Under the pieces are notes generated by a model. It was not told the DNA's origin and ran no database searches. It worked only from the letters and a program-made list of their open reading frames with translations. Both the position numbers and the translations under genes were made by a program. Below are positions 172 through 11,716 of a DNA stretch of 50,117 nt, piece by piece. Within the stretch, counting starts at the first letter, position 1, and every line of letters starts with the position of its first letter. Source of the DNA: Candidatus Methylomirabilota bacterium (GTDB lineage Bacteria; Methylomirabilota; Methylomirabilia; Rokubacteriales; CSP1-6); assembly GCA_036002485.1 (NCBI GenBank), contig DASYTI010000057.1, positions 1 to 50,117 on the forward strand. The letters are read 5' to 3'.

Positions 172-1467
172 CTAGCGGGAGAGATGACCGGGCACGGCGG
201 GGCGGCCTTCCAGGCGCTGGCGGAAGAGCGCCTCGGCATCCTTGGTCCGGCCCGCCCGTAGATACGAGCTCAGCAGCGTCTGCTCGAAGACGTCGCGCTG
301 GGCGCGGCTGCCTCCGACCCGCACGATCTCCTCGAAGACCGGCTCGATGAGACGGATGGCCTCGCCATAGTCACCGCGCGCGAAGGCGGCCATACCCTCG
401 GCGACGTCGGCGACCACGGGGCCGGCGGGCTGGCGTCCTTCCCGCTCCATCTTCCGCAGCTCGGCGAGCCGGCTCTCGACCGCCGCGTGGTCGCCCGCCG
501 CCGCCAGCGCCATGACGATGTGGGCCTCGGCAAAGGCCGTGCTCGGTCGCGGAAAGGACCGAGCGGCAAAGTCCCGGATCTCGCCCCACGGAAGCGCGGC
601 GGGGCCCACTCCCCAGAGCTGGCAGCGCCACAGGAACGCGCTGCTGTCCGCCACCGCCCCCGTGGCCGCGGAGCGCGCGACGCCGGGACGGATGCTGTCC
701 TCGTAGACGGCGAGCGCGCGCGCGCCGCGCCCCGCCCCGAGCTCGAAGAGCGAGAGATGCCAGGAGAGATGGCAGTGCAGCTGGGCCGCGCGCTCGTATC
801 CGGGGATCCACCCGTTCACGAAGTCGGCGCCCCCGATACTGTCGCCTTCCTCATAGAAGACGTGCGCGAGGGCGTGGGCGGCGTTCGCGTTGCGCGGCCG
901 GAGCGTGAGCGACCGCTCGATCTTGCGCCGGCCCTCCGCCGGGCTGCCCGACTCCGTGCAGGCGAAGCCGTGCATGCCCAGGAACCACCAGTCGTCCTCG
1001 TAGGCGGACGCGACCCCATCGAGCAAGTCCCGAAGCAGCTTGTCGCGATCCCGCCGGCCGCTGGCTCCCACGAGGCTGTAGACCCCGGTGACGAGCGACA
1101 GCACGAGGGCATCGCGTGGCGTGTCCGCGAGGTGCTCGCGCACGAGGGCGAGCCCGCCCGTCAGCTCGCCGTCGATGGCGAGGGAGAGCGCCTCGATGTG
1201 GCGGCGCTCGCGCGGTGTGACCCCGCCCGCGAGCGCGCGCGCCCGGCCAATCGCCTCCTTGGCGGCGGGAACGGCGCCGCGGGCCTGCAGGCCACGGGCG
1301 CGGGCAGCGTGACCCAGCGCGAAGTCTGGATCCGCCTCGAGGGCCGCCTCGAGTGCCGGCTCGACGCCCGCGCTCGCCGAGAGGAACGCGTCCACGCCGA
1401 GCCGGTACTGCTCGGCGGCGCGCTCGGAAGTGGTGGACAGGCGAAGACCGCCACGGTCCTCAAACAT
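172..1467 (-). CDS. Tetratricopeptide-repeat protein (TTC38-like)
   Basis: This 431-residue protein is all-helical with no signal peptide or membrane segment, so it is probably cytosolic. Repeats of TPR type are visible (for example the A/L-rich helices near residues 40-75, 165-205 and 350-415). The middle, with LGMHGFACTESG and NAAHALAHVFYEEGD, matches the TTC38/StaR-like TPR family, whose biochemical role is unknown. The ATG overlaps the stop of the upstream enolase-superfamily gene by 8 bases, so the two are likely co-translated. The protein may act as a partner or scaffold for that enzyme, but this is inference from position. Confidence 0.75.
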   Translation of the reverse strand: MFEDRGGLRLSTTSERAAEQYRLGVDAFLSASAGVEPALEAALEADPDFALGHAARARGLQARGAVPAAKEAIGRARALAGGVTPRERRHIEALSLAIDGELTGGLALVREHLADTPRDALVLSLVTGVYSLVGASGRRDRDKLLRDLLDGVASAYEDDWWFLGMHGFACTESGSPAEGRRKIERSLTLRPRNANAAHALAHVFYEEGDSIGGADFVNGWIPGYERAAQLHCHLSWHLSLFELGAGRGARALAVYEDSIRPGVARSAATGAVADSSAFLWRCQLWGVGPAALPWGEIRDFAARSFPRPSTAFAEAHIVMALAAAGDHAAVESRLAELRKMEREGRQPAGPVVADVAEGMAAFARGDYGEAIRLIEPVFEEIVRVGGSRAQRDVFEQTLLSSYLRAGRTKDAEALFRQRLEGRPAVPGHLSR

Positions 1468-2599
1468 AGCCGGGGCCCTCGATCACCGGGTGAGCTGTCA
1501 GAAAAGCTTCGTCGATCTCGACGCCGAGGCCGGGCTTCTCCAGCGGCCGCACGCAGCCGTCCGTGCCGATCCGGTAGGGCTCGCTGCCGAGCTTGTCGCG
1601 GAAGAGGTTGTACGTGGAGACGTCGGCCTCGAAATAGCCGGCATTGTCGATGGCGGCCAGAAAATGGATGCAGGCGGCCATGTTGAGGCCGGTCATCGAG
1701 GTATGCGGGTTGATGGAGAGCTTCCACGTCGAGGCGAGGGCCGCGATGCGCAGCCCTTCCGTGATGCCCCCGGTCTTGGAAAGATCGGGCTGCAGGATGG
1801 TGATCACCCGGTCCTCGATCACGCGGGAGAACTCGAAGCGCGTGTAGTGATTTTCGCCGGCGGCCAAGGGTACGCGGGCAAAGGTGGCCGCCTGCGCATA
1901 GCTCCGGTGGTCGTGGGGCGGAAAGGGCTCCTCGAGCCAGCCCACGGCATGAGCCTCCAGTCCCGGCATGGCCTGGCGCGCATCCGCCACGGTGTAGCCG
2001 GTATTGGCGTCAGAGAGAATGGTCAGCCCCTCGCCGAAGGCCTTGCGCACCGCCGCCACGCGCTCGAGATCACGCGTGGGAGCATCGCCGATACGGAGCT
2101 TGACCGCCTTGTAGCCCGCCTCGACGTGGACACGCGCCTCGTCCACGAGCGCCGCGGGCTCCTGATAGCCGAGCGAGACACCGCCCGCATACGCGGGGAT
2201 GGGGCGCGCCGCGCCGCCGAGAAGACGATAGAGCGGCCAGCCCACCGCCTTGCCGCGTATATCCCAGAGCGCCATGTCGATGCCGCTCATGGCGATGGCC
2301 GTGGCCGCGCCCATCCCGTGGGAGCCCAGCTGCATCTTGTAGATCTTGGCCCACACCCCAACAACATCAGATGCGTCCATTCCCATGACGAGCTGCTTGA
2401 GCGTGGTATTGGCGTGGTGGGCGACCGCGCCGGGCGAGCGGCCGTGATGCGACTCGCCCCAGCCGACCAGGCCCCCGTCCGTCGTCACCTTGACCACGAC
2501 GGCGTCGCGCTTGACCGCCATCCCGATGCCCAGCGAGACACGGGCCTCGGGCGGGACGGGAAACGACGTGGGAAACGCGCGAATGTCCGCGATCTTCAT
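1460..2599 (-). CDS. Mandelate racemase/muconate lactonizing family enzyme
   Basis: This 379-residue enolase-superfamily enzyme is the usual length. It has the N-terminal capping domain (1-125) and a TIM barrel. Visible active-site residues are K167-x-R169 on strand 2, metal ligands D197 (SDANTGY), E223/E224 (WLEEP) and E249 (GENHY), and the D272/H299 dyad (QPDLSKTGG, NPHT). The D-H dyad places it in the mandelate-racemase subgroup, whose members are mostly acid-sugar dehydratases or racemases using Mg2+. KxR instead of KxK is a variation, so the substrate cannot be named. It is followed by the TPR gene with an 8-base overlap. Confidence 0.85.
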   Translation of the reverse strand: MKIADIRAFPTSFPVPPEARVSLGIGMAVKRDAVVVKVTTDGGLVGWGESHHGRSPGAVAHHANTTLKQLVMGMDASDVVGVWAKIYKMQLGSHGMGAATAIAMSGIDMALWDIRGKAVGWPLYRLLGGAARPIPAYAGGVSLGYQEPAALVDEARVHVEAGYKAVKLRIGDAPTRDLERVAAVRKAFGEGLTILSDANTGYTVADARQAMPGLEAHAVGWLEEPFPPHDHRSYAQAATFARVPLAAGENHYTRFEFSRVIEDRVITILQPDLSKTGGITEGLRIAALASTWKLSINPHTSMTGLNMAACIHFLAAIDNAGYFEADVSTYNLFRDKLGSEPYRIGTDGCVRPLEKPGLGVEIDEAFLTAHPVIEGPGYV

Positions 2600-2765: not shown

Positions 2766-3326
2766 TCAGCAGTTCATGTATTTGCCGCTCACCAGAGACT
2801 TCACGGTGCCGTCGGCGTCGAAGACGTGGCGCTGGAGGCCCATGAGGTCCTTGCCGTAGACGTGGATCTCCAGCGTGTCCTTGGTGGTTGGATTGTGCAT
2901 GGCGTGGATCTCGTCGTGGGGTGGCACGAGTCGGGACACGGCGCCGGGCTTGTGACGAAGCACCTCGCGCACTTCGAGCGCCACCTTGCCTCCGAGGGAG
3001 CGCGCGCCCGTGGAGACATAGCGCGTCTCCTGGATCTCGTTCTCGACCACCCCCACCAGGCCCCACGTTTCATGATCGTGAGAGCGGGCCTCGTCACCCG
3101 GCGGCCAGATCACCGAGGTGACGTTGAATCGCGGGCCCCGGTGGAGGATGTAGCGGCCCCGCTGACCCGCCGGCGCGGTGCGATACTCGGCGGGAATCGC
3201 CTCCGGATTGCCGCAGAGCTTCTCGAGGAACGGCGCCGCCCGGCGGGTGATGACCTCGGGGTCCTGCTCCTTGCTCGTGATCGCCTCGAGATCCTCGAGG
3301 AACTGCTTGAACGTGTACACCGTCAT
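2766..3326 (-). CDS. Cysteine dioxygenase-like (thiol dioxygenase) cupin protein
   Basis: This 186-residue cupin belongs to the type I cysteine dioxygenase/3-mercaptopropionate dioxygenase group. These enzymes use three-histidine Fe(II) to oxidise a thiol to a sulfinate. Iron ligands are visible as HDH in SHDHETWG and the later PHDEIHAMHN. The ATG at 3326 is chosen because GAGGAGGAG lies 5-6 bases upstream, directly after the stop of the sulfurtransferase gene 11 bases away. It is the last gene of the thiol operon, which supports a role in cysteine or mercaptoacid breakdown. Cysteine versus mercaptopropionate as substrate cannot be decided. Confidence 0.8.
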   Translation of the reverse strand: MTVYTFKQFLEDLEAITSKEQDPEVITRRAAPFLEKLCGNPEAIPAEYRTAPAGQRGRYILHRGPRFNVTSVIWPPGDEARSHDHETWGLVGVVENEIQETRYVSTGARSLGGKVALEVREVLRHKPGAVSRLVPPHDEIHAMHNPTTKDTLEIHVYGKDLMGLQRHVFDADGTVKSLVSGKYMNC

Positions 3327-3337
3327 CGATCTCCTCC

Positions 3338-4318
3338 TCAGAGCTCGACCGGTGTGTCGGAGCGGCCGCCCCACTCCGTCCACGAGCCGTCATAGACCGC
3401 GACCTTCTTGTGCCCGATCACGTGAAGCCCCAGGGCCAGCACCGAGGCCGTCACCCCCGAGCCGCAGGTGGTCGCCACCGGTTTGCGCGGATCCAGTCCC
3501 GCCTCGCGAAACGCCTCCTTGAGCCCCTCGGGAGGAAGGAGGGTGCCGTCCGGCCGGTAGAGCATGTCATAGGGCAGGTTGAAGCTGCCCGGAATGTGGC
3601 CGGCGCGCAGCCCCTGACGCGGCTCGGCCTCGGTGCCGTAAAAGCGGCCGCGCGAGCGAGCGTCCAGCACCTGCTCGCGACGCGTGTCGACATTGCGTCG
3701 CATCTGCTCGAGCCCGCGCACGAGCGCGGGCCGGAGCTTGGCGCGGAAGCGACGGACGGCGGGGGTGGGCGCCCCCGTGGCGAGGGGACGCCCCTCGGCC
3801 TTCCACTTCTTGAGTCCGCCGTCGAGCACAGCCACCCGATCGTGCCCGAAGGCCCGGAAGGTCCACCAGACGCGCGCGGCGCTGACCACGCCGCGGGTGT
3901 CATAGACCACGATGAGGTCATGGCTCGACAGCCCCAGCGCGCTCATGTGGCGGGAGAACTCCGCCGCCGCGGGAAGCATGTGGGGAAGAGGCGTGGTGCG
4001 ATCGGCGATCTCGTCGATGTCGAAGAAGACCGCCCCGGGGATATGCCCTTCCTCGAACTCGCGGCGCGCGCTGCGCTGGAGCTGAGGCATGTGCCAGGTG
4101 CCGTCCACCACGCGCACGCGAGAGTTCTCCCCGCCCCCGCGAGGATCAGATAGAACCGCGGCCAGCCACTCCGTGGTCACGACGAGGCCCGGGCTCTTGA
4201 AGGCGGCCGGCCCCCGGGCCGCCTTCGTGCGGGCCCGGGGTCGTGCGGGACGCTTCGCGCGGCGGCTTACTTTGACCGCGCGGCGTCGAGGGCGGCGGGG
4301 TCGAGATCGACTTCCCAT
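3338..4318 (-). CDS. sseA: 3-mercaptopyruvate/thiosulfate sulfurtransferase
   Basis: A tandem two-domain rhodanese. The N-terminal domain is inactive and the C-terminal domain carries the active loop CGSGVTA, the signature of 3-mercaptopyruvate sulfurtransferases (thiosulfate enzymes have CRxGxT). It moves sulfur from mercaptopyruvate to a thiol or cyanide. Two starts are possible. ATG at 4318 has GGAGG 10 bases upstream and overlaps the upstream rhodanese gene by 52 bases, adding a very basic 46-residue N-terminus. GTG at 4180 gives 280 residues, the normal family length, but lacks a ribosome site. I list the longer form; the core is certain and the start is not. Confidence 0.85.
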   Translation of the reverse strand: MGSRSRPRRPRRRAVKVSRRAKRPARPRARTKAARGPAAFKSPGLVVTTEWLAAVLSDPRGGGENSRVRVVDGTWHMPQLQRSARREFEEGHIPGAVFFDIDEIADRTTPLPHMLPAAAEFSRHMSALGLSSHDLIVVYDTRGVVSAARVWWTFRAFGHDRVAVLDGGLKKWKAEGRPLATGAPTPAVRRFRAKLRPALVRGLEQMRRNVDTRREQVLDARSRGRFYGTEAEPRQGLRAGHIPGSFNLPYDMLYRPDGTLLPPEGLKEAFREAGLDPRKPVATTCGSGVTASVLALGLHVIGHKKVAVYDGSWTEWGGRSDTPVEL

Positions 4319-5853
4319 TTCAGATAGGCCTCCATGGCCTCGCGGCCCTTCTCGTACGGCTTGAGCACCACATCGTCGGTCTCGTCGAGGAGTCGGCTCT
4401 TGCCCGTCTCGAGCGCGAGCCCCACCCGCTCCCACGCAGAGGTGCCACCGTCCAGCACGCGGACGGCGGCATAGCCGACGCGCGCGAGCGCGGCCGCGGC
4501 GAGCGTCGAGGGCCGCCCGTCGCGGCACGTGAGAACGAGGGCCCGTGTCCGATCGGGGAGAGCCTGTGGAGCCTTGAGCTCGAGGCGGCTGCGGCACAGC
4601 CATGCCGCGCCCGGCACGTGGCCGCGGGCATAGACATCGCTCGGATCGACGCTGAGCACGGTGGGCGGCTGTCCTCCCGCGAGCGCGGCCTTGAGCTCCG
4701 CCGCCACGAGGCTGCCCACCACCTCCCGCGCCGCCGCGAATCCCCACGGCTCGGCCTCGGGATGGCCGGTCTCGATGGCGCCGCCCTGCTCGATCCATGC
4801 GGGGAGCCCGCCCGAGAGCACCGCCACCTGAGGCAGACCCATGCGCTTGAGCCACGAGGCGGTCATGACCGAGCGGCCGGCGCCATCGCAGACCAGCACG
4901 ACGCGCGCGGCGCGCACCGCGATGTACTCGTCGGTGGCCTGGACGGCCTGGCCACCGGGGGCCCACGCGGCGCCCGCCAAATGACCGGCCTCGTATTCCT
5001 CGCGCATGCGGACATCGAGGACGACGACATTCTCCTCGGCGCGACGGGCCCAGAGATTGCTCAGCTCGACCGCCGTGATGGATGCGATCCCGTCATCCTT
5101 GGCCACCCGCGCCGCCACCGCGCGCGCCCGCTCGCGGCCCGCCTCCGACACCGCGGGCGCCCAGCGCTGGGCTCCCCGCTCGAGGGCAAAGCCGGCCAGC
5201 TCCCAACCCATGGTGCCGTTCTCGAGGGCCACGATGGGATTGGGCAGCCTCATGCGCCGGAGAGACTCGGCGCCGATATAGCTCCGGGTGCGGCCGCCGC
5301 AGTGGACGACGATGGTGGTCTCGGGTTTCGTGGCGAGCTCGCCGATCCGCAGGGTGAGCTCGCCCCCCGGCATGCTCACGGAGCCCGGGATACAGCCCCG
5401 GTGATACTCCTCGGGCGTGCGCGAATCCACGATGACCAAGTCTTCGCCGCCATCGATCCGCCGCTTCAGCTCGTGAGGGGGGATCTCGGGCGTGCCGAGG
5501 TGATGGAGGGCCCATTCCCCGAACGCCTTGCTCGGCACGTTGATGCCCGTGACGGTTTCCCGCCCTCCCGCGCACCAGTCGCCAAGCCCTCCCTCGAGCG
5601 TGCGGACGTCGGTATAGCCCATGGCGCGCACCATGGGCGAGGCGAGCGCGGCCAGGGTGCCGTCGCCGTCACACAATACGAGGGGCGTGCCCTTCGCCGA
5701 CACGAGATCGCGCAGCCTGAACTCGAGGAGCCGCCGGGGCAGAGAGGTCGCGCGGAAGATATGCCCGCGCTCATAAGCCGCGCGCTCGCGGAGATCGAGG
5801 ACGGCGTGGGGCGCCTCGCCCGCCATGAGCGCGGCCAGCTCACGCGGCGTCAC
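4267..5853 (-). CDS. Four-domain rhodanese-like sulfurtransferase
   Basis: This 528-residue protein carries four rhodanese modules in a row. Each has a cysteine at the active-loop position: LVLCDGDG, VVHCGGRTRS, LVCDGAGRS and LTCRDGRPS. There is no signal peptide. Rhodanese domains carry persulfide sulfur on that cysteine. The GTG start at 5853 overlaps the TGA of the upstream VKOR-thioredoxin gene as GTGA, the hallmark of coupled translation. Starts further upstream would run inside the thioredoxin domain. The neighbours (mercaptopyruvate sulfurtransferase, thiol dioxygenase, thiol oxidoreductase) point to sulfane-sulfur handling. The physiological acceptor is unknown. Confidence 0.85.
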   Translation of the reverse strand: MTPRELAALMAGEAPHAVLDLRERAAYERGHIFRATSLPRRLLEFRLRDLVSAKGTPLVLCDGDGTLAALASPMVRAMGYTDVRTLEGGLGDWCAGGRETVTGINVPSKAFGEWALHHLGTPEIPPHELKRRIDGGEDLVIVDSRTPEEYHRGCIPGSVSMPGGELTLRIGELATKPETTIVVHCGGRTRSYIGAESLRRMRLPNPIVALENGTMGWELAGFALERGAQRWAPAVSEAGRERARAVAARVAKDDGIASITAVELSNLWARRAEENVVVLDVRMREEYEAGHLAGAAWAPGGQAVQATDEYIAVRAARVVLVCDGAGRSVMTASWLKRMGLPQVAVLSGGLPAWIEQGGAIETGHPEAEPWGFAAAREVVGSLVAAELKAALAGGQPPTVLSVDPSDVYARGHVPGAAWLCRSRLELKAPQALPDRTRALVLTCRDGRPSTLAAAALARVGYAAVRVLDGGTSAWERVGLALETGKSRLLDETDDVVLKPYEKGREAMEAYLKWEVDLDPAALDAARSK

Positions 5854-6713
5854 GGCCGGGCGCCCGCCTGCGTCGTGTAGCGGAACCTGGAGAGCTCGGC
5901 GAGGCGCTCGAGGGACAGCACTCCCTCGTGCTTCTGGCCGCCGATCATCCACGTGGGATAGGCGCGCACGCCCGCCCTCACGCAGCGCTCATCGATCGTC
6001 TTATGATCGCCCGTGGGATTGCACTCCACGTACGGCAGACGCTCCGCGGCAGGCCCGAACCGGGCCTTTTGCTCTTTGCACGCGGGTCACCAGTGGGCGC
6101 CGTAGAACACGGCCTGGTTCTTCTTGAGATGCTCGGCGAGAGCCATCTGGTATCCCGCGGGCGTGGAGAAGTCCGCGGCGAAGATGAACGCGCCGAAGAT
6201 CACCGCGGCCACGCCCGCCGTGATGCCGAGTCCGGCCAGGTGCTTCAGCGAATACGCCCGGGCAGGGGCCGCGGGCCGCCTCACCATCATGGTCACGAGG
6301 AGCAGGAGCGAGATGGCGCCCGAGGCGAGGCAGTAGGGGCAGGTGGCGCCGATCACGAAGACCGACAGGTACGTGAGGTAGATCGAGAAGGCCACCGCGG
6401 CCGAGACGAACATGAAGGCCGTCTGCCAGCGCCGCACGGTTTGCGGGATGACGCTCAGGACCAAGATGGCGGCGTAGACGGTGGCGCCCCAGAGGGCGGT
6501 GGGGAGACCGGCGAGGAGCGAATAGCGACTGGCCTGGACGATGTCGCAGCCGCTGCCGTCGCGGCAGAGGAAGGTTTGATTGCCGCCCAGCTTCAGCGCG
6601 GTCAGGTAGCCGGCCACGGCCAGACCCACGAGGGCCAACCCCGCGATGATCCAGTCCGGCCGCGACGTGACGGGCGGCGAGGGCATCTCGCGCGGCTTCT
6701 TGAGCTTCGGCAT
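5850..6713 (-). CDS. VKOR-thioredoxin fusion, probable selenoprotein (in-frame TGA = Sec209)
   Basis: Residues 1-190 form a bacterial vitamin K epoxide reductase domain with several membrane helices, loop cysteines C50 and C56 and the active CPYC motif (C125, C128). In related fusions a thioredoxin domain with WCPxC follows. Here the frame reads FYGAHW, then TGA (6089-6087), then PACKEQKARFG, and continues open to a TGA at 5852-5850 as a complete thioredoxin-like domain. So TGA replaces the first CxxC cysteine (U209-P-A-C212). The downstream stop overlaps the next start as GTGA. ATG 6713 has GAGG six bases upstream. A standard caller would stop at 6087 and give a 208-residue fragment. VKOR reoxidises thiol oxidoreductases using quinone. 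A nonsense mutation or a base error is the alternative. Confidence 0.8.
6051..6067 (-). promoter_or_regulatory. Candidate bacterial SECIS hairpin
   Basis: On the minus strand AGGCCCG (6067-6061) pairs perfectly with CGGGCCT (6057-6051) around the three-base loop GUU (6060-6058). The loop begins 26 bases after the in-frame TGA at 6089-6087. Bacterial SECIS elements are known to be stem-loops within the coding region just after the UGA, with the apical loop roughly 16-37 bases downstream and a G among the first loop bases. This hairpin meets all three conditions. SelB binding is inferred. Confidence 0.6.
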
Positions 6714-8905: not shown

Positions 8906-9184
8906 ATGAGCGAGGAACTGGCGACCAAGGTGCAGGAGCTGATTGACTCGACCATCAATCCGGCCGTGGCCGGCCATGGTGGCTTCGTCCAGCTGATAGA
9001 AGTCAAGGACAACAAGGTCTACCTCCAGATGGGCGGCGGCTGTCAGGGCTGCGGCGCGGCGGATGTCACGCTGAAGGCCGGCATCGAGCGCCTCATCAAG
9101 GAAGAGCTTCCGGAGATCGAGGAAGTACTGGACTCCACCGACCACGCGGCCGGCACCAACCCGTACTACACGCCGGCGAAGTAG
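8906..9184 (+). CDS. NifU-like C-terminal domain protein (Fe-S scaffold)
   Basis: A 92-residue stand-alone NifU C-terminal domain. The pair C46 and C49 in GGGCQGCGAA is the cluster-binding motif. Proteins of this type (Nfu) hold and deliver a [4Fe-4S] cluster to target enzymes in the cytosol. GGAGGTGAGG precedes the ATG closely. A hairpin with a T-run at 9222-9256 terminates it. It stands alone, divergent from the crotonase and convergent with msrQ, so its clients are not indicated by context. Confidence 0.9.
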   Translation: MSEELATKVQELIDSTINPAVAGHGGFVQLIEVKDNKVYLQMGGGCQGCGAADVTLKAGIERLIKEELPEIEEVLDSTDHAAGTNPYYTPAK

Positions 9185-9213
9185 CGACTGAGCGGCGCCC
9201 CGCTCGAAGCTCG

Positions 9214-9861
9214 TTAGCCCGCCCTCTCCCCCAGTGGGGGAGAGGGTTCGTTTTTTAGGGCTCGCGAAGCCAGTTTTTTCCGCCCCCAGTCCCACAGCCG
9301 CACGGCGAGCAGGGCGGCCAGCACGATGGCGTAGTAGTACGGCGTCGTGCGGCCCTTCTTGGCCAGCCACAGGAAGTGGAGCACCCCGAGCACCCCCGCC
9401 ACGTAGACGGCGCGATGGAGCAGTCGCCACCGGGCGCCGCCCAGGCGCTTGATCATGCCCTGGGTCGACGTGAGGGCGAGGGGGATGAGGAGCACGAGGG
9501 CGAGGACGCCCACCGTGATGAAGGGGCGCTTGAGAACGTCCTGCCCCATGCGCTTCCACGCGAAGAAGTGATCGAGCCCTATCCAGACGGTGAAGTGCAG
9601 GCAGACGTAGAAGAAGGCCAGGAGGCCGAGAAGGCGGCGAAACTGGATGGGCCAGGACCAGCGGAACAAGATGCGCAGCGGGGTCATGCCGAGACTGGTC
9701 AGGAGCAGGACGAGGGCGGTGAGCCCCAGGGTCCGCGTGATGTAGTCGATGGGATTGGCGGTGAGATCGTCAGCGAACCAACCACGCACCAGGACCCCGA
9801 GGGGCCAGAGGCTGGCCACCCAGACGGCGGCCTTGAGAGCGACCCGCCTGCGATACGTCAC
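9214..9861 (-). CDS. msrQ: MsrQ, haem-binding membrane subunit of the MsrPQ methionine sulfoxide reductase
   Basis: A 215-residue membrane protein of the ferric-reductase-like family with about six helices. Histidines are placed in helices (CLHFTVWIGLDHFF, LLHRAVYVAG, GVLHFLW) as haem ligands. MsrQ passes electrons from the quinone pool to periplasmic MsrP. GTG 9861 is chosen because it starts 7 bases after the msrP stop. The last residues (PSPPLGERAG) are encoded by the inverted repeat that also terminates nifU on the other strand, so the original C-terminus was probably replaced by repeat sequence. Confidence 0.85.
   Translation of the reverse strand: MTYRRRVALKAAVWVASLWPLGVLVRGWFADDLTANPIDYITRTLGLTALVLLLTSLGMTPLRILFRWSWPIQFRRLLGLLAFFYVCLHFTVWIGLDHFFAWKRMGQDVLKRPFITVGVLALVLLIPLALTSTQGMIKRLGGARWRLLHRAVYVAGVLGVLHFLWLAKKGRTTPYYYAIVLAALLAVRLWDWGRKKLASRALKNEPSPPLGERAG
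9222..9256 (+). terminator. Intrinsic terminator of the nifU-like gene, made of repeat sequence
   Basis: CCCTCTCCCCC (9222-9232) pairs with GGGGGAGAGGG (9236-9246) around AGT, followed by TTCGTTTTTT (9247-9256). This is an 11-base-pair stem plus T-run on the plus strand, 37 bases after the nifU-like stop. The same bases encode the end of msrQ on the opposite strand. Confidence 0.75.
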
Positions 9862-9868
9862 GCGATTT

Positions 9869-10831
9869 CTAGTAGAACTTCCGCAGGTCCATCCCCGTGT
9901 ACATCGAAGCGACCTGATCGCCATAGCCATTGAACATCAGCGTCTCGCGGCGACGCACCTCTGGAATGCGGCGCTCGGTGGCCTGAGTCCAGCGGGGATG
10001 GTCGACCTGCGGGTTCACGTTCGAATAGAAGCCATACTCGCTGGGCGCGGCCTTGTTCCAGGCGGTCTTGGGCTCCTCCGCGGTGAGGCGGATCTTGACC
10101 AGGGACTTGGCGCTCTTGAAGCCGTACTTCCACGGCACCACCACGCGGAACGGCGCGCCGTTCTGGTTCGGGAGGACCTGGCCGTAGAGTCCGACGGTCA
10201 TGAGGGTCAGGGGATGCATGGCCTCGTCGAGCCGGAGCCCTTCCGTATAGGGCCAGTCGAGAGCGAAGCCGAAGAGGCCTCGCCTTTGTCCCGGAAACAT
10301 CTTCGGGTCGACGAGGGTGGTGAACTCGACGTACTTGGCCTGCCCCGTGGGCTCCACGCGCTTGAGCAGATCTTTCAAGGGAAAGCCTATCCACGGAATG
10401 ACCATGGACCAAGCCTCGACGCAGCGGAGCCGGTACACCCGCTCCTCGAGAGGGAACTTCAGGATCTCCTCTATGTCGAAGGTCTTGGGTTTGGCGCAGA
10501 ACCCCTCGACCTTGACCGCCCATGGGCGCGTTTTCAGCGAGGCCTGCAGCCGCTCCGGGTCCTCCTTGTTGGTGCCGAACTCGTAGAAGTTGTTGTAGGA
10601 GGTGACGTTCTTGTACGAGGTCAGCGCGTCGGGCAGCGTGAAGGCCGGGTTCCTGGCCGCCTTGAGCGGGGCGAGATTCCCCTGCGCCGAGGCCCGGGAA
10701 GGCACCAGGGCCAGCGCCGCGGCTCCCGCAATGAAGGCCCGCCGATCGAGATAGAGCCGCTCCTCGGTGATCTCCGAGGCCGGGATGTCCTCTCCTCGAA
10801 CTTTCCTGTCCTGGTCACGCTTGATCAACAT
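9869..10831 (-). CDS. msrP: MsrP, periplasmic molybdopterin methionine sulfoxide reductase
   Basis: A 320-residue protein of the sulfite-oxidase fold. A twin-arginine signal is visible ([16 protein letters not shown], near residues 27-42, cleavage after ASA). C137 in [11 protein letters not shown] is the molybdenum ligand. MsrP repairs oxidised methionines in periplasmic proteins with electrons from MsrQ, encoded next with a 7-base gap. Length and motifs match the family. This pair is normally induced by oxidative chlorine stress in other bacteria; no such regulator is seen here. Confidence 0.92.
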
Positions 10832-11501: not shown

Positions 11502-11716
11502 GGTCCTGGACCAATTTGCTCGCCAATTCTACTCAGCTCTCGCCTCGCGGCGGGGCCGCTCAGCTCGAAAGGCCACGTTCGCGGTCGCCAGCAGCGCTCA
11601 ACGTACAGAAAGTACGCCTCGCACTGCTGGCTCCCTCGGGCGTGGCCTTTCGAGCTGAGGGGCGTAGCCCCGAGGCGAGGGCTGGGTTGGTCTGGCTCGC
11701 AACTTGGCCCAGGACC
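11502..11716. repeat. 215-bp near-perfect palindrome, copy A
   Basis: The outer arms GGTCCTGG (11502-11509) and CCAGGACC (11709-11716) enclose a long inverted repeat. Inner matching blocks include AGCTCGAAAGGCCACG against CGTGGCCTTTCGAGCT, with CGTAC...GTACG at the centre. It is the same length as copy B at 20640-20854 and shares its layout. The gap 11501-11759 between the PLD-like and M48 genes contains this element and the M48 promoter, and no other gene is seen. Confidence 0.85.

Follow-up and report, generated by a model that had tools for sequence, protein, structure and literature searches.

A 50,117-nucleotide contig from a Candidatus Methylomirabilota bacterium of the Rokubacteriales (DASYTI010000057.1; the whole stretch is called the window here) carries four tightly packed genes in the same direction on its minus strand. 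In order, they encode a VKOR-thioredoxin fusion (VKOR-Trx), a four-domain rhodanese, a 3-mercaptopyruvate sulfurtransferase (MST), and a thiol dioxygenase. A first-pass annotation of the window had treated all four as one undescribed sulfane-sulfur or cysteine-catabolism module driven by a selenoprotein. We instead favor, with a probability of about 60%, the view that two things share this gene string: a cytoplasmic unit for the breakdown of mercapto acids, and an independent VKOR-Trx that would form disulfides at the membrane and was placed upstream of the unit in this genus.

The genome bin to which the window belongs measures 4.45 Mb in 253 contigs, with a completeness of 95.7%; the window is its contig 57. 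The VKOR-Trx gene (5850-6713, minus strand) runs from an ATG at 6713 to a stop codon at 5852-5850, and this stop overlaps the GTG start of the rhodanese gene (4267-5853, minus strand) as GTGA (5850-5853, minus strand), an overlap shared by two congeners. From the rhodanese stop (TAA, 4269-4267), about 86 bases lead to a GTG at 4180 that is most likely the MST start, judging by the 280-residue length that it gives here and in other genera. An in-frame ATG exists farther upstream, and its use would make MST (3338-4180, minus strand) overlap the rhodanese gene. The MST stop (3340-3338) is followed 11 bases later by the ATG at 3326 of the dioxygenase gene (2766-3326, minus strand; 186 aa), which is preceded by AGGAGG. 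The co-directional, close packing seen in the first pass is therefore borne out, with a longer interval between rhodanese and MST. A scan for sigma-70 promoters found none, a result that is uninformative. It is probable from this arrangement that the VKOR-Trx gene and the unit are co-transcribed and translationally coupled in the genus.

Evidence for the unit comes from homologue searches in 95 genomes of the same class, in which the rhodanese and the dioxygenase were searched separately and 32 regions were compared. Outside this genus, the full trio, in this order and on one strand, is present in 18 genomes from 11 genera, many of them with overlapping genes; this genome and two congeners bring the total to 21 genomes of 12 genera. 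Four further genomes have rhodanese and MST only, one has rhodanese and dioxygenase only, and one (G047) is interrupted by contig ends. The dioxygenase and four-domain rhodanese genes are adjacent without MST in G038 and G004. Because the arrangement is kept in 12 genera, the linkage is far above chance, and rhodanese-MST-dioxygenase is confirmed as a thiol-metabolism unit that is kept across the family. No VKOR gene adjoins the unit in any of these genomes of other genera. Thus, the linked thiol module proposed at first holds for three of its genes, while VKOR-Trx adjoins them in this genus alone. For this uncultured soil group, the unit suggests a testable way of using small organosulfur thiols.

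A related gene pair has been described. In Pseudomonas protegens, the genes 3mdo and tst (c14110/c14100), homologous to PA2602/PA2603 of P. aeruginosa, form an apparent single transcription unit, and deletion of 3mdo raises the level of 3-mercaptopropionate (PMC12947264). Calling the module undescribed was therefore too strong. A dioxygenase-rhodanese pair is also present in Azospirillum, Klebsiella, and Sodalis plasmid records, and several Burkholderia records have matches to the two proteins about 200 bases apart or less. The Pseudomonas pair resembles the unit described here in that the gene for a 3-mercaptopropionate dioxygenase (3MDO) adjoins a thiosulfate-sulfurtransferase gene. It differs in having the dioxygenase gene in first place with no MST gene in between, as is also the case in Klebsiella, Sodalis, and Azospirillum. 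Mercaptosuccinate dioxygenase gene clusters of Variovorax and Advenella likewise include a rhodanese gene (PMC5373536), but these contain a cystathionine beta-lyase gene and no MST. The unit is confirmed as conserved but belongs to a type already known, from which it departs in its additional MST and its altered dioxygenase. Its new elements, as far as sequence comparison can tell, are this MST and a form of the dioxygenase in which two arginines occupy carboxylate-binding positions.

The dioxygenase had been labeled a cysteine dioxygenase (CDO), a name that we have set aside. Its PF05995 score is 19.6 bits, under the cut-off of 23, and its closest PDB sequence is the Pseudomonas 3MDO (3uss/4tlf, E 7.7e-20; profile E 8e-28), which is also the best match to its predicted fold (4tlf, E 6e-17). 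On the strength of these sequence and model comparisons, the protein appears to be a 3MDO-type thiol dioxygenase rather than a canonical CDO. It has the CDO fold and three His ligands, carries Gly rather than Cys at the crosslink position, and has an invariant Arg166 that aligns with Arg168 of 3MDO, the carboxylate clamp described for Av3MDO (PMC8050391). All of these traits are shared with Pa3MDO (4TLF) and Av3MDO (6XB9). In contrast to these enzymes, Arg58 stands at the position of CDO Arg60, where Pa3MDO has Gln62, and a Glu153-His155-Tyr157 triad takes the place of Ser-His-Tyr. The aligned family members also have Arg at the former position, and a distant one (L163) has Ser.

This Arg is one reason to think that the enzyme might nevertheless be a CDO in function. 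Together with the neighboring MST, which uses a cysteine-derived substrate, it would then provide two parallel routes of cysteine breakdown, one through a sulfinate and one through mercaptopyruvate. We consider this unlikely, though worth keeping in mind, given that both sequence and fold are nearest to 3MDO, that the Arg168 position is kept, and that the crosslink Cys is missing. Mercaptosuccinate dioxygenase (8VNI) offers another comparison: it has Arg at both aligned positions, but its sequence (profile E 5e-11) and its fold are both farther from the enzyme described here. That enzyme acts on a dicarboxylate. Because the dioxygenase described here has the same two Arg residues, its thiol substrate may, by analogy, carry a second carboxylate. 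The altered active site is a natural test of what governs substrate choice in thiol dioxygenases.

The rhodanese (528 aa) matches PDB entry 1yt8, a thiosulfate sulfurtransferase of four domains which we take to be P. aeruginosa PA2603, over residues 7-517, essentially its full length (E 1e-94), and matches PF00581 in four stretches (E 6e-63). The four domains expected from the first pass are therefore present. Four working sites are a different matter. Only domain 2 (HCGGRTRS) has the active-site Cys in every homologue examined, and domain 1 is often without it, which rules out a working first site as a general feature. A literature search for four-domain rhodaneses returned nothing relevant. 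The bin encodes a second such protein (L164; G000:C1:114210-115796) that is 43% identical and lies beside a luciferase-like monooxygenase, without MST or dioxygenase. The assignment of MST is based on an NF008557 score of 252.7 bits against a cut-off of 250, two rhodanese domains, the motif CG[ST]GVT (here CGSGVTA), and human MST as the top PDB match (3olh/4jgt, E 2e-85).

From these assignments, it seems reasonable to propose how the unit might work. The dioxygenase would use O2 to convert the thiol group of a small mercapto-carboxylate into a sulfinate, as has been shown for its relatives, and the sulfinate might later give sulfite, as in the known 3-mercaptopropionate and mercaptosuccinate pathways. 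3-Mercaptopyruvate would supply MST with sulfane sulfur, which the four-domain rhodanese would hand on, most likely to sulfite to form thiosulfate. The genes upstream of the unit vary among genomes and include those for family III CoA-transferases, enoyl-CoA hydratases, a dihydrolipoamide-dehydrogenase-like protein (named from sequence only), an MFS-like transporter, and others. A route through 3-sulfinopropionate-CoA would fit the CoA-transferases and hydratases, but genes of this sort occur commonly, and a single CoA-transferase gene (L139) abuts the unit, and so we retain this route as a lead. Separately, more distant rhodanese or rhodanese-dioxygenase loci (L163 in G004, L166 in G090, and L171 in Azospirillum) adjoin genes for ABC transporters, either of the dipeptide or of the taurine/sulfonate type, a setting that may point to uptake of organosulfur compounds.

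VKOR-Trx lies next to the unit in four genomes, which are all the genomes of this genus that have VKOR-Trx. In other genera, the selenocysteine-containing form has other neighbors, namely multihaem cytochromes with an MtrB/PioB outer-membrane barrel, FeoA/FeoB, or unrelated genes (L073, L069, L072, L077, L062, L068), suggesting a possible role in the maturation of exported electron-transfer proteins. Among 52 genomes of the family outside the genus, 15 have VKOR-Trx, 21 have the dioxygenase, and six have both, where six are expected (Fisher p = 1.0). We also scanned named genomes from many phyla and listed the best 80 VKOR-Trx loci as a sample; none of these 80 has a rhodanese, MST, or dioxygenase gene nearby. 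With no linkage in that sample, no co-occurrence, and trios without an adjacent VKOR in 11 other genera, VKOR-Trx can be rejected as a general partner of the unit.

The predicted locations of the proteins point the same way. The VKOR-Trx sequence contains five hydrophobic segments; basic residues occur at its N terminus and in the loops that join segments 2 and 3 and segments 4 and 5. Because this pattern resembles that of Synechococcus VKOR-Trx, we expect the thioredoxin domain to lie in the periplasm. No hydrophobic segment occurs in the rhodanese, MST, or dioxygenase, which look cytoplasmic. With the partners in different compartments, direct exchange between VKOR-Trx and the enzymes of the unit would be unlikely. 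We therefore picture VKOR-Trx as a protein that oxidizes exported proteins through a thioredoxin domain in which selenocysteine serves as the attacking residue, and that passes the electrons to quinone as its family does. It would have reached its present position through a rearrangement in the ancestor of the genus, would work in another compartment, and would not be needed for the unit.

Two closer relationships deserve consideration. The first is a loose functional tie through shared induction by oxygen or thiol stress, in which VKOR-Trx might, for example, form periplasmic disulfides while the unit clears mercapto acids that would otherwise reduce them. The retention of the linkage in all four VKOR-bearing genomes of the genus agrees with this idea, as does the presence of MsrP/MsrQ at 9214-10831, which repair periplasmic methionine sulfoxide. 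Nonetheless, the association is confined to a single genus and no regulator was found, and we hold such a tie to be possible but rather doubtful. The second, in which the selenoprotein supplies disulfide exchange to the sulfurtransferases and the dioxygenase, is the proposal of the first-pass annotation. The GTGA overlap in three genomes of the genus and the fact that every part handles thiols make it appealing, yet the trio lacks an adjacent VKOR in those 18 genomes of 11 genera, the six shared occurrences in 52 genomes match chance, the predicted compartments differ, and VKOR-Trx keeps other company elsewhere. We judge it improbable. The annotation had named unlinked genes in related genomes as evidence that would speak against its module; such unlinking is found for VKOR-Trx and not for the other three genes. 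Caution is warranted more generally, as the gene order of one genus should not be read as a pathway.

Several points weigh against the two-part view that we prefer. In G057, a deletion has removed the rhodanese gene from its place between VKOR-Trx and MST; what is left is a C-terminal piece of it next to a palindromic-repeat copy (L059:14009-14173), while VKOR-Trx, MST, the dioxygenase, and the downstream genes stay in place; this gene order assumes that two contig ends sharing MST belong together. The persistence of VKOR-Trx beside MST after the loss could reflect either a functional tie between them or plain retention. In addition, co-transcription rests on gene spacing, and sequence does not fix the thiol substrate of the dioxygenase. 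Finally, deletion of tst in P. protegens caused no significant change in 3-mercaptopropionate (PMC12947264), so that the role given to the rhodanese here is tentative.

Considered by itself, VKOR-Trx appears on comparative grounds to be a selenoprotein, as the first pass had proposed. The protein, 287 aa long when UGA is read as Sec, matches Synechococcus VKOR-Trx (3kp9/4nv2) across nearly its whole length (E 4.5e-42) and PF07884 (E 2.5e-26), and both its VKOR domain, with a loop Cys pair and a CxxC motif, and the thioredoxin domain that follows are recognizable, with C38, C44, C113, and C116 invariant in the alignment. Its near relatives that carry names are Candidatus Rokubacteria. An in-frame TGA (6089-6087, minus strand) lies within W-U-P-A-C, at the first Cys position of the thioredoxin CxxC motif. 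When the read-through protein was used as the query in the class genomes, TGA was found at the same codon in about 20 relatives (43-87% identity), with open frames beyond it, and Cys was found in three. Every TGA version reads W-U-P-[AV]-C-x-E-Q-[KQ]-A-R-F-G, and a hairpin, AGGCCCG-GUU-CGGGCCU (6051-6067, minus strand), begins 19 nt past the UGA. The codons of the hairpin core (K, A, R, F, G) show zero variation among 20 selenocysteine (Sec) sequences, whereas 63 other conserved codons average 0.93 bits. Such constraint on synonymous sites is what a selenocysteine insertion sequence (SECIS) would impose. The Cys homologues have a different protein sequence in this region. Two hallmarks of a bacterial selenoprotein, an in-frame UGA at a redox Cys position that is Cys in homologues and a SECIS hairpin, are thus present. 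Because the TGA recurs in about 20 relatives and the hairpin codons are invariant in 20 sequences, we read the UGA as selenocysteine.

The bin itself contains no SelA. For SelB and tRNA-Sec, no match exceeds the cut-off, and the best one in the SelB search is IF-2. By comparison, SelA is found in 84 of the 95 class genomes and in 51 of the 53 good ones. Three congeners have tRNA-Sec together with selA; in two of these, selB-like genes adjoin selA, and the contig of the third stops directly after selA. Apart from a dispersed repeat, the bin lacks the entire 8.6-kb sel region of the nearest congener, neighbors included. For the gene located past selB in a second congener, the bin offers only a 41% match, which sits on a different contig. 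Because the genes that flank the sel locus of the congeners are missing too, an assembly gap is the most likely explanation; a larger deletion that took the whole region is a lesser possibility, and loss of the machinery in the species is not favored. In G057, selA is directly followed by a repeat that has matches on many contigs of the bin. Although the lack of selA, selB, and tRNA-Sec matches would suit a reading of the UGA as a genuine stop, as a sequencing error, or as the mark of a decayed gene, we give this almost no credence in view of the recurrent TGA with open frames beyond it, the invariant hairpin, and the missing flanks that point to a gap.

Selenocysteine forms of VKOR-Trx also extend well beyond this genus. 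Twelve of the best 80 loci have Sec (TGA) and 68 have Cys, the former in Rokubacteria, Methylomirabilis, SAR324, Thermodesulfovibrionia, Nitrospirae, and Desulfobacterales. The hairpin in other phyla is GAACAGA-AGGN-UCUGUUC, 12 nt after the UGA (L184, L187, L193, L195, L200), with AAACAGA/UCUGUUU in L204, unlike the Rokubacterial hairpin at 19-20 nt. Some Cys homologues can form similar hairpins from their E-Q-K-x-L-F codons, and so the other-phyla hairpin was rejected as a discriminator of Sec when used alone. The two hairpin types may reflect separate changes from Cys to Sec.

Compared with Synechococcus VKOR-Trx (3KP9, 4NV2), the protein has the same membrane VKOR domain and thioredoxin domain with WxPxC and YPTW, but Sec replaces the first Cys of the thioredoxin motif. 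DsbA-like and thioredoxin-like UxxC selenoproteins carry Sec at the same position of the thioredoxin-fold CxxC; the protein described here differs in that its thioredoxin domain is joined to the membrane domain of a VKOR. A literature search for VKOR selenoproteins returned nothing relevant, and the word VKOR is absent from the text of a review of prokaryotic selenoprotein families from May 2026 (PMC13188914) and from the other selenoproteome papers searched. This negative result does not extend to the 63 selenoproteins predicted in a Methylomirabilota bin that the review cites. By sequence, a Sec form of VKOR-Trx in several phyla, outside that review's list of families, looks real and would be the chief novelty here. 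More tentatively, and with the odds against the picture in its entirety, Sec VKOR-Trx could be an unlisted selenoprotein family of Methylomirabilota, SAR324, Thermodesulfovibrionia/Nitrospirae, and Desulfobacterales, with two SECIS types and perhaps two Cys-to-Sec changes, that serves the folding of exported multihaem cytochromes in Rokubacteria and was recruited to the mercapto-acid operon in this genus. If true, a Sec-based, quinone-linked disulfide former would extend selenoproteins to oxidative protein folding at the membrane. Such proteins are easily overlooked, as annotation ends them at the UGA and leaves the thioredoxin motif incomplete.

Other features of the window lie on either side of the four genes. 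A mandelate racemase/sugar-acid dehydratase-like enzyme (1460-2599, minus strand; PF13378 E 2.2e-60) is an extended neighbor of the unit. It is 79-84% identical in other genera, above the identity of the rhodanese itself; its gene lies upstream of the rhodanese gene on the same strand in six genomes of those genera and directly downstream of the dioxygenase gene in G057. A gene for a NifU-like domain protein and the methionine-sulfoxide reductase pair MsrQ/MsrP occupy 8906-10831, a few kb beyond VKOR-Trx. Copies of a dispersed palindromic repeat, different from the one after selA of G057 but similar in sequence to that at the G057 rhodanese deletion, are found at 2615-2691, 9208-9249, and 11502-11716, one of them with 105-nt arms.

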